Source: Risungbinella massiliensis
Lineage (GTDB): Bacteria; Bacillota; Bacilli; Thermoactinomycetales; Thermoactinomycetaceae
Reading direction: 5' to 3'
Length of the DNA stretch: 64,000 bases
Assembly (NCBI RefSeq): GCF_000942395.1
Contig: NZ_LN812102.1
Coordinates: 1,462,816-1,526,815, forward strand
The stretch's first letter is position 1. Each line of letters begins with the position of its first letter. The notes under the pieces were generated by a model that saw nothing but the letters and a program-made list of their open reading frames with translations, was not told the origin of the DNA and did no database searches. The position numbers and the translations under genes were made by a program. Below, piece by piece: positions 24,445 through 50,642 of this stretch.

Positions 24445-24525
24445 TACCTGAGGCCGGACTTGAACCGGCACGCCTCGCGGCACCGCATTTTGAGTGCGGC
24501 GTGTCTGCCATTCCACCACTCAGGC
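24445..24525 (-). tRNA. trnL-CAA: tRNA-Leu (CAA)
   Basis: A class II cloverleaf with GCCTGAG/CTCAGGT acceptor arms, anticodon stem CCGCA/TGCGG around loop CTCAAAA (anticodon CAA), a long variable arm and T-arm CCGGTTCAAGTCCGG. The 3' CCA is not encoded. Its 3' end faces the holin gene. Confidence 0.95.
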
Positions 24526-37629: not shown

Positions 37630-37715
37630 GGAGTGTAGTTTCGTTGCGGATCTTCCGCATCCCTAGTGTTACCTGAATAAAAACAATATTTTAAACGGAA
37701 AGTTTGGATGCCAAA

Positions 37716-38627
37716 GTGGAAATAACCTTTCTTGGAACAGGGGCTGGTGTTCCTGCTAAACATCGTAATGTCTCCTCTCTTATTCTCCGTTTTCCAGAAT
37801 ACGATGGAGATCAATGGATATTTGATTGCGGTGAAGGAACCCAACACCAAGTACTCCATACTAACTTACGACTAACCAAGGTTTCTCGTATTTTCATTAC
37901 TCATTTACACGGAGATCATATATATGGTTTGCCTGGTGTTTTAGGTAGTCGATCTTTTCATGGATCTACTGAGCCCTTAACCATATATGGTCCGAAGGGA
38001 ATACAGGAGTTTGTGGATGTTACGCTAGGAGTGAGCAAGACCCACCTTCATTATCCAATTGAATATGTGGAGCTTCAAGATGGACTGACCTTTTCAACTG
38101 ACTTTTTCCATATAACAGTTCGACTACTAGAACATGGTATCCCTTCCTATGGTTTTCGCTTAGAAGAGAAAGAAAAACCAGGGAAACTAGAAATAGAACG
38201 CCTCCAAGCATTAGGAATTCCTTCTGGACCTTTACTAGGCAAGTTAAAACGAGGAGAAGTAGTAGAACTTCCCGATGGCACCGTCTTAGATGGAAGAGAT
38301 TTTCTTGGTCCTCCTACGCCAGGGAAAGTTTATGCAATTTTAGGAGATACCCGCCCTACTCCTTCAATCGAACAGTTAGCCCGTCATGCGGATCTGCTCG
38401 TACACGAAGCAACTAGAAGATCCGGTGATGAAGAACTTGCCAATCTGTACTTTCATTCTACGATCGCACAAGCAACAGAGCTGGCCAAACGTGCCGAAGT
38501 AAAAATGCTACTGATCAACCATATTAGTACGCGTTATGTGGACAACTTAGAAGAACTCCAACAAGAAGCTTCTGCACAATTTGAGCATAGCATAGTTGTA
38601 CAGGATTTCGATCAATTCGTGTTTTAG
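37716..38627 (+). CDS. rnz: Ribonuclease Z
   Basis: About 303 residues of an MBL-fold tRNA 3' endonuclease. It has 'ITFLGTGAGVPAKHRNVSSL' at the N-terminus, the metal motif 'THLHGDHIYGLPGLLG'-type 'THLHGDHIYGLPGVLG', and 'AILGDTRPT' and 'LLINHIS' later. It removes the 3' trailer of tRNA precursors lacking encoded CCA, such as both tRNA-Leu genes here. GTG at 37716 gives the N-terminus usual for the family; TTG at 37704 is an alternative. Ribosome sites are weak for both. Confidence 0.92.
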   Translation: MEITFLGTGAGVPAKHRNVSSLILRFPEYDGDQWIFDCGEGTQHQVLHTNLRLTKVSRIFITHLHGDHIYGLPGVLGSRSFHGSTEPLTIYGPKGIQEFVDVTLGVSKTHLHYPIEYVELQDGLTFSTDFFHITVRLLEHGIPSYGFRLEEKEKPGKLEIERLQALGIPSGPLLGKLKRGEVVELPDGTVLDGRDFLGPPTPGKVYAILGDTRPTPSIEQLARHADLLVHEATRRSGDEELANLYFHSTIAQATELAKRAEVKMLLINHISTRYVDNLEELQQEASAQFEHSIVVQDFDQFVF

Positions 38628-38641
38628 ACTAGTATAAAAAT

Positions 38642-38677
38642 ATACAACAGAGAGTTAATGAATGCCTCTGTTGTATA
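38642..38677. terminator. Hairpin after rnz
   Basis: ATACAACAGAG (38642-38652) pairs with CTCTGTTGTAT (38665-38675), an 11-bp perfect stem just after the rnz stop. Confidence 0.7.
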
Positions 38678-38767
38678 TCCAATCTAAATTGCTATTAACA
38701 AGAAAAGATATCCTAATCCATTTATGATTGTTATAAAATTTAGTATGTTAATATAGTTGTCTTATAT

Positions 38768-38951
38768 GCGCCTGTAGCTCAAACAACGGGAGAGCGCAGT
38801 AAAACGTTGATGGGAGTTCCAGTAGCCTGGAATGGTGAATAGCCAGTAGGATGCGGCACCGAACAACCTCTCGGAGAAGCTTAGTAGGGAAGCGTGTTAT
38901 CCTCTCAGGTATGCTTACAAAAGGAGTGCGGGTACGAATTCCGTCAGGCGA
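38768..38951 (+). ncRNA. tRNA-like structured RNA with ~130-nt domain replacing the anticodon arm
   Basis: The top half of a tRNA is complete. The acceptor-like stem CGCCTG/CAGGCG (38769-38774 with 38945-38950) is followed by the two-base linker TA and a D-arm GCTC/GAGC (38777-38780, 38792-38795) whose loop has A14-, GG- and A21-like bases. The T-arm GCGGG/TCCGT (38928-38932, 38940-38944) has the 7-base loop TACGAAT and abuts the acceptor strand. Between D- and T-arm lie about 130 bases with a perfect hairpin TTCCAG-TAGC-CTGGAA (38817-38832) and other short helices, but no anticodon arm. Strand is judged from tRNA polarity. It might belong to the raiA-type ncRNA class, be an intron-bearing tRNA-Arg, or be new. 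The antisense frame here is a spurious product of the tRNA-like sequence. Confidence 0.6.
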
Positions 38952-38973
38952 ATTCAATTTAAACTATTTCACA

Positions 38974-40797
38974 TTATGGTCTCAATAACCGAAGTCCATT
39001 TAAAATAACCAAAATAGTACTTCCTTCATGACCGATCACCCCAATTGGTAACGTAATCGCTTCTCCAAAATTACTGATCATCAAACAAAGGATGACGAGA
39101 CTTGCAAAAACTAAATTCTGTCTGACTACTTTTCGTACTTTTTGCCCTGTTTGGATCACTTGTAGAACCAGCGGAAGTTGATCCTTCATCAAGATCACAT
39201 CGGCTGTCTCCAGTGCTGCATCGGTTCCCGTTTGTCCCATTGCGATTCCTACATCCGCTAGTGCCAAAGCTGGTGCATCGTTGACCCCATCTCCTAACAT
39301 CGCCACTGTGCGATAGCGTTCTTTTAATTCCCCTATTTTCGCCATTTTCTCTTCAGGTAATAGATTCCCGTAAGTTTCCTCTATGCCCAATCTATGCCCC
39401 ATTTTGGTAGCAGCTATCTCTTGGTCACCAGACAACAAAATCGGAACGATCCCCATCTTTTTCAGTCCTGCAATCAGCTCTCTTGCTTTCTCCCTAATTT
39501 CGTCCTCTAGCGAGATAGCACCTATGATTTTTCCTCCCTGCTCCACGAGAAGAACTGTTCTCCCTAGCGTAGCTTCTTCCTCTACAAATCTACTCCACTC
39601 TTCTGTTACCTCCGCAAACGCACTTGCTTTCTGGATCTTCCATGTCTTCCCTTGGTAGATCGCTTCGATCCCGACCCCTGTATTGGACTGAAGATCTTCG
39701 ACAGTTTCAACCCATATGGCTTGCCTACTTGCATAAGAGGTCAATGCTTTTGCAACTGGATGATTCGACAACTGTTCAATCGCTCCCACTGCTTGCCAAA
39801 AATATTCTGTATCTCCCTCTTGCATCACTCTTACTACACTCAACTCTCCTTTGGTCAACGTACCTGTCTTATCAATCGCAATCGCTTTTAACTGAGATAG
39901 GCTTTCCAAAATCCGACCGTTTTTCAGTAGCACTCCTGTGTTGGCACTTCGGGACGTAGCGGACAAAAGAGCAGGCATAATCGATGCTACAACAGCACAA
40001 GGCGAGGCGACGACGAGAAAGATCATCGCTCGGTAAAAGGCCACGTCCCACGACCATCCCCCACCAAATAGAGGGTACAAACCAATGAGAGTTGTGATCA
40101 ACAGTACTCCATACACGTACCACTGCTCCCAACGTTCTATTTTTTGTTGACTCTTCGGTACCTCATGTTTAACCTGTTCTACTAAGCGAATTATTTTTTG
40201 AAAAGTTGTATCTTCATATAGTTTAGTTACTTTGATCTCCAACGCTCCTGATCCATTTAAAGTTCCAGCGTAGACCTCATCTCCTACTGCTGTCTCCTTT
40301 GGGACCGATTCTCCTGTGATCGAAGCCTGGTTTACTTCCGATCTTCCTTTTTCGACTTTTCCATCCATCGGAACTCGTTCATTTGGTCTCACTAATAACC
40401 GATCCCCGATTTGAATCTGATCTAGCTCGATGATCTCTTCTCCATCTGAGGAGAGCCGGGTAGCTTCATTTGGTTGCATCTCTAAAAGAGCAGATAAGTC
40501 TCGTTCGCTCTTGGCAAGTGTAAGAGATTCTAATGCACCACTCATCGCAAAGATAAAAATCAAGAGATTCCCTTCCAGCCAATAACCAATAGAAATTGCA
40601 CCCGTTGCCGCAAGCAACATGAGAAAATTGACGTCTAGCTTTTTCTCTTCTTTAGCAACCTGCAAAGCTTCTTTTCCTTTATATATTGCACCGATCATAG
40701 ACGATAGTACATATAGTATCGGACTGTCCCAACCCCAAGCCAAAGCTAGTAATATCCCACATATGATCGCTAAAATAAACTCCCCATTTTTACGCAT
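38974..40797 (-). CDS. Heavy-metal P1B-type ATPase (ZosA/PfeT-like)
   Basis: A 607-residue P-type ATPase without N-terminal metal-binding domains. It shows the A-domain 'ITGESVPKE', the membrane motif 'SPCAVVAS' (SPC rather than CPC), the phosphorylation site 'DKTGTLTKG', 'HPVAKAL' and 'GDGVNDAPALALADVGIAMG'. It ends with 'VIGHEGSTILVILNGLRLL', as in zinc/iron-type pumps. SPC is known from Bacillus ZosA (Zn uptake, PerR-controlled), so this is a Zn/Fe/Mn-class transporter in the cell membrane. The start is ATG at 40797 after AGGAGG. Two Fur/PerR-like boxes lie upstream. Metal and direction cannot be settled by sequence. Confidence 0.88.
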   Translation of the reverse strand: MRKNGEFILAIICGILLALAWGWDSPILYVLSSMIGAIYKGKEALQVAKEEKKLDVNFLMLLAATGAISIGYWLEGNLLIFIFAMSGALESLTLAKSERDLSALLEMQPNEATRLSSDGEEIIELDQIQIGDRLLVRPNERVPMDGKVEKGRSEVNQASITGESVPKETAVGDEVYAGTLNGSGALEIKVTKLYEDTTFQKIIRLVEQVKHEVPKSQQKIERWEQWYVYGVLLITTLIGLYPLFGGGWSWDVAFYRAMIFLVVASPCAVVASIMPALLSATSRSANTGVLLKNGRILESLSQLKAIAIDKTGTLTKGELSVVRVMQEGDTEYFWQAVGAIEQLSNHPVAKALTSYASRQAIWVETVEDLQSNTGVGIEAIYQGKTWKIQKASAFAEVTEEWSRFVEEEATLGRTVLLVEQGGKIIGAISLEDEIREKARELIAGLKKMGIVPILLSGDQEIAATKMGHRLGIEETYGNLLPEEKMAKIGELKERYRTVAMLGDGVNDAPALALADVGIAMGQTGTDAALETADVILMKDQLPLVLQVIQTGQKVRKVVRQNLVFASLVILCLMISNFGEAITLPIGVIGHEGSTILVILNGLRLLRP

Positions 40798-40815
40798 AGC
40801 CTTTTTCCTCCTATT

Positions 40816-40890
40816 GAGAGTAATGATCATTCTTACACCTCATAAAACGGCGAAAGCGACCCTGAAAGGTCGCAGTGAGAATGATTCTTA
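40816..40890 (-). promoter_or_regulatory. Two Fur/PerR-like boxes before the P-type ATPase
   Basis: TGAGAATGATTCTTA (40876-40890) is a 7-1-7 inverted repeat with one mismatch, the Fur/PerR layout. A second, AGTAATGATCATTCTT (40818-40833), has a perfect AATGATCATT core. Between them is a GCGACC/GGTCGC hairpin (40857-40874). Both lie within 95 bases of the ATG. Confidence 0.6.
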
Positions 40891-50560: not shown

Positions 50561-50642
50561 TACCGATGGTCGGGGTCGAACCGACACTCCCGTAGGAACA
50601 CGATTTTGAGTCGTGCGCGTCTGCCAATTCCGCCACATCGGC
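50561..50642 (-). tRNA. trnL-CAA: tRNA-Leu (CAA), second gene
   Basis: A class II cloverleaf with acceptor GCCGATG/CATCGGT, anticodon stem CACGA/TCGTG around CTCAAAA (anticodon CAA), a long variable arm and T-arm GTCGGTTCGACCCCGAC. CCA is not encoded. Its sequence differs from the tRNA-Leu(CAA) at 24.45 kb although the anticodon is the same. Confidence 0.95.

Follow-up and report, generated by a model that had tools for sequence, protein, structure and literature searches.

Few RNA classes of bacteria and phages are known to mimic tRNA, namely tmRNA and YrlA. In YrlA, the bacterial Y RNA (RF02553), a tRNA elbow made of D- and T-arms is joined to a non-tRNA stem, and the RNA is found with Ro60/TROVE genes. 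In tmRNA (RF00023 and relatives), tRNA-like ends are combined with a large insert and a pseudoknot, and species 1 RNA of phage T4 (rnaC) is a stable RNA of a phage tRNA cluster that has a T-arm. In Bacillus, the excerpts of PMC3399842 used here describe tRNA-Other of Bacillus cereus as a non-translational tRNA-like RNA linked to a genomic island.

The RNA reported here comes from a 64,000-nt stretch of the Risungbinella massiliensis genome (NZ_LN812102.1, positions 1,462,816 to 1,526,815; hereafter, the window). It belongs to an RNA class that lacks a matching Rfam 15 family and is seemingly undescribed in the open-licence literature, where our searches recognised no description of it. The homology, fold, and covariation of the class are established by comparison of relatives, and it adds to the systems above a widespread tRNA mimic whose tRNA fold is complete, whose anticodon is probably locked in cis, and whose core hardly varies. 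Like YrlA, it joins a tRNA elbow to a non-tRNA stem, and many of the viruses in which it is found also carry TROVE; it differs from YrlA in that the RF02553 model does not match it, its acceptor ends are open, with CCA encoded in some copies, and its extra domain lies in the variable region. It is set apart from tmRNA by a real D-stem and anticodon arm, and by eye no tag reading frame is seen in the class alignment. The T4 rnaC RNA matches R1, our covariance model of the class, through its T-arm alone (11.5 bits, filters off) and is without the core motifs, and neither rnaC nor rnaD was accepted as a member. With its canonical T-arm by the 3' end, rnaC (L164:1409-1547) may be a parallel case, a stable phage RNA derived from a tRNA. 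As for tRNA-Other, it has a Trp anticodon and is a tRNA-like element inside a longer transcript; the excerpts of PMC3399842 used here do not give a comparable insert as a feature and mention a 133-bp insertion at the 3' end in one strain.

Database models likewise leave the window RNA unclaimed. The sequence-only reading had suggested that it might be a raiA RNA, presumably similar to it in length, and had named a new tRNA-like RNA class as the fallback. The first suggestion is not supported, as no Rfam 15 family, raiA included, matches at E<=5 within 38300-39400 and none overlaps the phage copy in L123 (1495-1649); the fallback was borne out by dozens of homologues with covariation. The same reading had doubted a group I intron and a tmRNA, rightly so: the Rfam check that it proposed (raiA, tmRNA, group I intron, tRNA) gave no match over the window RNA, intron models included, and the resemblance to tmRNA consists of T-arm bits alone (13.3 bits against a cut-off of 47). 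ARAGORN and the Rfam tRNA model also miss the RNA, the tRNAs of the window being two tRNA-Leu (24445-24525 and 50561-50642). The locus, with its upstream neighbour, is laid out as follows.

37704 to 38627, forward strand: ribonuclease Z gene (rnz), the neighbour, with Pfam tRNase Z/Lactamase_B matches
38768 to 38952, forward strand: the full tRNA-like RNA, from the acceptor through the discriminator base A, supported by homologues and by an R1 match of 107.8 bits that is not independent, the window sequence being among the 29 used to build R1
38768 to 38774, forward strand: acceptor stem, 5' strand GCGCCTG, from the sequence; the acceptor covaries in the class (helix 1)
38775 to 38776, forward strand: linker UA (U8-A9), from the sequence
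38777 to 38795, forward strand: D-arm GCTC-AAACAACGGGA-GAGC, from the sequence, with a 4-bp stem (38777-80/38792-95) and GG in the loop; helix 2 is nearly invariant and thus shows little covariation
38797 to 38809, forward strand: anticodon-arm remnant with CAGT as its 5' strand and AAAACG as its loop, in which AACG occupies 38803-38806, placed by comparison; most relatives have a 4-5-bp stem here
38811 to 38816, forward strand: insert stem (P2), 5' strand TGGGAG, best helix for the window copy (L001); the stem covaries in relatives
38817 to 38832, forward strand: optional hairpin TTCCAG-TAGC-CTGGAA, read directly from the sequence
38856 to 38863, forward strand: core motif GCACCGAA; GCACCG is present in 88/89 sequences, the viral scans having selected on it and the Bacillota pattern scan not
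38884 to 38898, forward strand: core motif GTAGGGAAGC-G-TGTT; TGTT (38895-38898) can pair with AACG of the anticodon loop
38902 to 38907, forward strand: insert stem (P2), 3' strand CTCTCA, from the best-helix search
38928 to 38944, forward strand: T-arm GCGGG-TACGAAT-TCCGT, abutting the acceptor, from the sequence; loop position 55 is A
38945 to 38951, forward strand: acceptor stem, 3' strand CAGGCGA, from the sequence; CCA is not encoded

Relatives with the pair of D- and T-arms and variable inserts, for which the sequence-only reading had recommended a search, were recovered from several sources. By blastn, the RNA was found in 16 plasmid records out of 72,556 (from Listeria, Cytobacillus, Priestia, Peribacillus, and Bacillus) and in 6 of 101 genomes, one of which is the window's own; a second query was positive in 10 of 398 class-level genomes, one of these being a chance coding match. 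A pattern scan of one genome per species (84,980 species) gave 64 Bacillota loci, of which 59 possess the two tRNA ends (58 identified by script, L035 by R1), four are 3' fragments, and one is a chance match. Because this pattern lies wholly inside the insert, the tRNA ends of the 59 loci constitute independent support. Scans of viral contigs (IMG/VR) yielded 32 distinct loci (22 real, 10 chance), and blastn of phage records yielded 27 Streptomyces-phage records (23 and four more); six of these were inspected at the level of single bases, and alignment was the basis for judging the others. Dropped along the way were the chance matches L026, L038, L092-L095, L107, and L158-L163, two loose motif matches also taken as chance (L203 and L209), seven Enterococcus phage matches that are tRNA-Cys, and two Streptomyces phage matches to a tRNA-Arg-like gene (L097 read). 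The comparison set, collected with the motif AGGGAAGC, comprises 89 unique sequences of 152-243 nt from plasmids, Bacillota, viral contigs, and Streptomyces phages; the partial 3' copies L060, L075, L080, and L090 were left out, and L035, intact by R1, is also outside it, having been missed by the extraction script.

The R1 model gives annotators, together with the motif, a means of detecting the class. Eleven viral loci outside its build set score 41.6-111 bits against 36.7 bits for the best ordinary tRNA in the same search, these loci being not wholly independent in that some are close to model sequences (L149) and all were found by short motifs. Ordinary tRNAs reach 43.8 bits elsewhere, so that L151 (41.6) and L148 (44.8) are not separated by score alone. 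Across 299 genomes of the phylum, four R1 matches exceed 100 bits, all of them known members, and the next reach at most 43.8 bits; the lower matches coincide with tRNA-Arg genes (ARAGORN) in 14/16 loci examined. Descent from tRNA-Arg(ACG), to which the ACG-like loop and the presence of tRNA-Arg among the top R1 matches outside the class had pointed, is not supported, Arg being best in just 3/17 loci when each half was compared with neighbouring tRNAs.

In its overall anatomy, the class keeps the acceptor, D-, anticodon, and T-arms of a tRNA, and its insert occupies the variable region, after the anticodon arm and before the T-arm. The acceptor-like stem, UA linker, D-arm, and T-arm abutting the acceptor, all placed in tRNA geometry by the sequence-only reading, are present in the window copy and supported by homologues. 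Its insert of about 130 nt is also real, with 132 nt separating D-arm from T-arm and a hairpin of its own; the further claim that this insert replaces the anticodon arm failed, since that arm is kept and covaries in the class. Acceptor stems have 6-7 of 7 positions paired in 78/78 sequences (the script required at least 5), and T-stems are fully paired (5/5) in 76/78. The acceptor, D-, and T-arms come with the elbow bases of a tRNA; since the extraction patterns included some of these, namely U8 and most bases of the T-loop, the conservation of those bases is not independent.

The single-sequence fold of the window copy is no better than that of shuffled sequences (z 0.13), and the case for the structure thus rests on comparison with relatives. 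Covariation is strong: the score of 0.370, as opposed to 0.155 for shuffled alignments, is reached by 0/500 shuffles. In a 29-sequence alignment (A2), 94.8% of pair cells are standard, as opposed to 82.3% when shuffled and 38-50% in controls slid out of the native register, and 24/38 pairs change on both sides against 13.3 in shuffles; these include all four pairs of the anticodon helix (helix 3). A 4-5-bp anticodon stem could be parsed in 85/89 sequences. The insert, 82-170 nt long with a median of 120 (85 parsed), is ordered as the P2 stem, the GCACCGAA block, usually at least one hairpin, the GUAGGGAAGC block, and then NGUU. Arm stem P2a occurs in 18 distinct combinations of its strands, which pair 3.72 of 4 positions against 2.06 when permuted (0 of 10,000); this test covered 76 sequences, L120 and the window copy itself (L001) not being parsed and L125 being counted in a poor register. 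An unconstrained search for this stem, in which partners were swapped, did not discriminate (native 12.95, permuted 12.68) because any helix was allowed, whereas the fixed-register test did.

A further feature of the class is the relation between its anticodon loop and its arm. The loop AACN (AACG/AACA) can pair with the internal NGUU (CGUU/UGUU), all four pairs being standard in 85/89 sequences. At the one variable pair, 86/89 are standard against a permuted mean of 70.7 and maximum of 77; this permutation ignores relatedness, and firmer evidence comes from two A-U/G-C swaps, one between L148 (A-U) and L153 (G-C), which are 77% identical, and the other between L012 (G-C) and its nearest relative (A-U), which are 91% identical. 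The exceptions at this pseudoknot pair are L008 and L013 (G-G) and L119 (C-C), and L121 breaks another of the four. In phage forms, ACG faces CGU, that is, a codon-like segment lies against the RNA's own anticodon loop. The loop likely pairs with an internal codon-like segment of the arm. It has 7-10 nt in 17/22 phage/viral forms (e.g., AAAACGGA) and 14-17 nt in 57/67 Bacillus-type forms, and its second base is never U in the 85 parsed sequences, which leaves it without U33; the 7-nt anticodon loop with U33 of a tRNA is absent from the class. With a loop that appears locked, has no U33, and is in most cases enlarged, the RNA probably does not decode.

The window copy is a divergent and perhaps decaying member of this class. 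That it is a dead relic is a reading to which we give real weight while leaning against it. It pairs 6/7 positions in the acceptor (38768-38774 with 38945-38951) with a G1-A72 mismatch, is the only one of 78 sequences with A at T-loop position 55, is one of four (of 89) in which no anticodon stem could be parsed, is missing the GUCGCA found after that stem in most Bacillus-type relatives, and has its nearest relative at 75.5% identity overall. The rnz loci of 11 relatives have no R1 match at E<=0.001, which fits a relic and led us to reject a functional link between the RNA and rnz, their adjacency not being conserved. A relic is, however, at odds with the intact core motifs, D-arm, T-stem, P2, and loop pairing (AACG/UGUU) of the window copy. 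It may be a recent arrival that is now drifting or decaying. On the other side of the RNA gene, at 38974-40830 on the reverse strand, lies a gene whose DKTGTLT motif points, by eye, to a P-type ATPase; it converges on the RNA gene with about 20 bases between.

In Bacilli, the sequence context of the RNA looks like that of a stand-alone gene. A crude ORF caller, applied to one ORF on each side, revealed no conserved neighbour, each Pfam family accounting for at most 2 of 106 proteins, and a TATAAT-like box lies upstream in 56/79 loci, phage loci included, against 27.2 expected. Most phage copies are found among or near tRNA genes; the contigs concerned include two of 512 and 424 kb. The class RNA is not annotated as RNA in the six phage regions examined, and with this class the role of extra stable RNAs in phage tRNA clusters becomes testable in Streptomyces phages. 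Acceptor sequences are of 24 kinds, and the discriminator is A in 61, U in 24, and G in 4 of the 89 sequences; with both variable, no single synthetase identity is kept. Copies of the 3' half lie either upstream of a whole gene, as in L045 and L068, or by themselves (L060, L075, L080, L090), and the viral contig L015 diverges at the acceptor 3' strand. These partial copies and this breakpoint suggest that the RNA gene serves mobile elements as an integration site, as tRNA genes do.

We tentatively favour the reading that this class, a tRNA fold with a giant variable arm, is a non-decoding, tRNA-mimicking adaptor or decoy, in which expression, tRNA-like maturation, lack of decoding, and the adaptor or decoy role are each predicted from sequence. 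The RNA would be expressed and matured as a tRNA is, by RNase P, RNase Z, and CCA addition, as suggested by the CCA encoded in some copies (L008, L012, L013, and L148) and by the proximity of most phage copies to tRNA genes. With an anticodon loop locked in cis, it would not decode; its elbow and CCA end would engage tRNA-binding enzymes; and the conserved GCACCGAA/GUAGGGAAGC module of the arm would bind a partner protein, the Ro60/TROVE protein being the leading candidate in viruses. The likely setting would be a phage/plasmid-host conflict over tRNAs. A possible evolutionary course is that phages spread the class, with a whole tRNA being turned into a non-decoding effector whose anticodon is locked in cis by a codon-like segment (in phage forms, CGU facing ACG), whose arm of 82-170 nt contains a protein-binding or catalytic core, and which acts on the tRNA economy in phage-host conflict and was domesticated in Bacilli.

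A rival and unlikely reading is that the RNA is a decoy or resistant substrate against anticodon nucleases or tRNA-cutting defences, with its anticodon hidden by internal pairing. Its carriers are tRNA-array phages and plasmids, its anticodon loop is probably locked, and phage answers to tRNA-cleaving defences, in the form of phage tRNAs and RNA repair, are on record in the excerpts of PMC7824862 used here. Nevertheless, a simple decoy would not need the strictly conserved arm core, and no defence gene was tied to the class RNA.

The idea that the class is a Y-type RNA, that is, a non-permuted tRNA-like partner of Ro60/TROVE with a CCGAA Ro-binding element in its variable arm, is likewise doubtful. 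Near-invariant in the class, CCGAA is similar to CCGAAG, which occurs in the TROVE-side RNA of the window genome, and to the Y RNA stem of vertebrates. TROVE is present in 6/6 phage records searched (of 27 bearing the RNA) and in 8/12 viral contigs searched (of 22 loci), one of the eight falling below the family cut-off; across phages, 342 of 50,697 records carry TROVE (tblastn). The resulting 14/18 RNA-bearing viral records against 0/13 controls (Fisher p 1.9e-5, the records not being independent) is a confounded comparison, in that some of the RNA-bearing records are closely related to each other and, among the 10 control contigs, 6 are shorter than 15 kb. The excerpted part of PMC7824862 notes that, within a small subset of jumbo phages, TROVE proteins come with a tRNA-like partner.

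Against this stands the observation that the Rfam YrlA model does not match the class RNAs. Moreover, TROVE occurs in 1/9 RNA-bearing Bacilli genomes, the window's own, as compared with 6/81 relatives in general, and is absent from the eight other RNA-bearing Bacilli genomes and from 4/4 plasmids searched. Of TROVE-bearing phages without a blastn match, 0/11 show the RNA by R1 (stricter filters; best 35 bits, in the range of ordinary tRNAs). Finally, distinct YrlA-like RNAs, all below the Rfam cut-off, adjoin TROVE genes in the window genome and in Streptomyces phage Comrade, where the acceptor of the TROVE-side RNA appears closed by eye. The TROVE association is suggestive for viruses and fails for Bacilli. 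Given this failure, the 11 TROVE phages without a copy, and the separate YrlA-like RNAs, we do not file the class as a Y RNA, though its function may be alike.

Last, a tRNA gene interrupted by a small self-splicing intron of unfamiliar type, to which a tRNA with a conserved insert and a loop/insert pairing that could mimic exon-guide pairing might point, is very improbable, as no intron model matches over the RNA in the window or in L123, the spliced product would lack U33 and in Bacillus types usually have a 14-17-nt loop, and the insert is variable (82-170 nt) with optional hairpins.

Other tRNA-like RNAs were seen beside TROVE genes and in further phages. The window genome has apparent tandem tRNA-like RNAs beside its TROVE gene (L216:4124-4242, reverse strand; C6, ~898.6 kb), with a Y-RNA-like stem in place of the anticodon arm; one matches the Rfam tRNA model with 47 bits over 119 nt and YrlA with 29.5 bits, below the cut-off. 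In Rhodococcus phage Trina, a 209-nt RNA annotated as tRNA-OTHER (L187:1140-1348) lies directly upstream of a Ro-like gene; it has tRNA-like arms but none of the core motifs, and was rejected as a class member. In Agrobacterium phage Atu_ph07, a 106-nt R1 match of 34.3 bits (L204; 335108-335213, reverse strand) is not a tRNA among the ARAGORN matches listed and may be another tRNA-like RNA.
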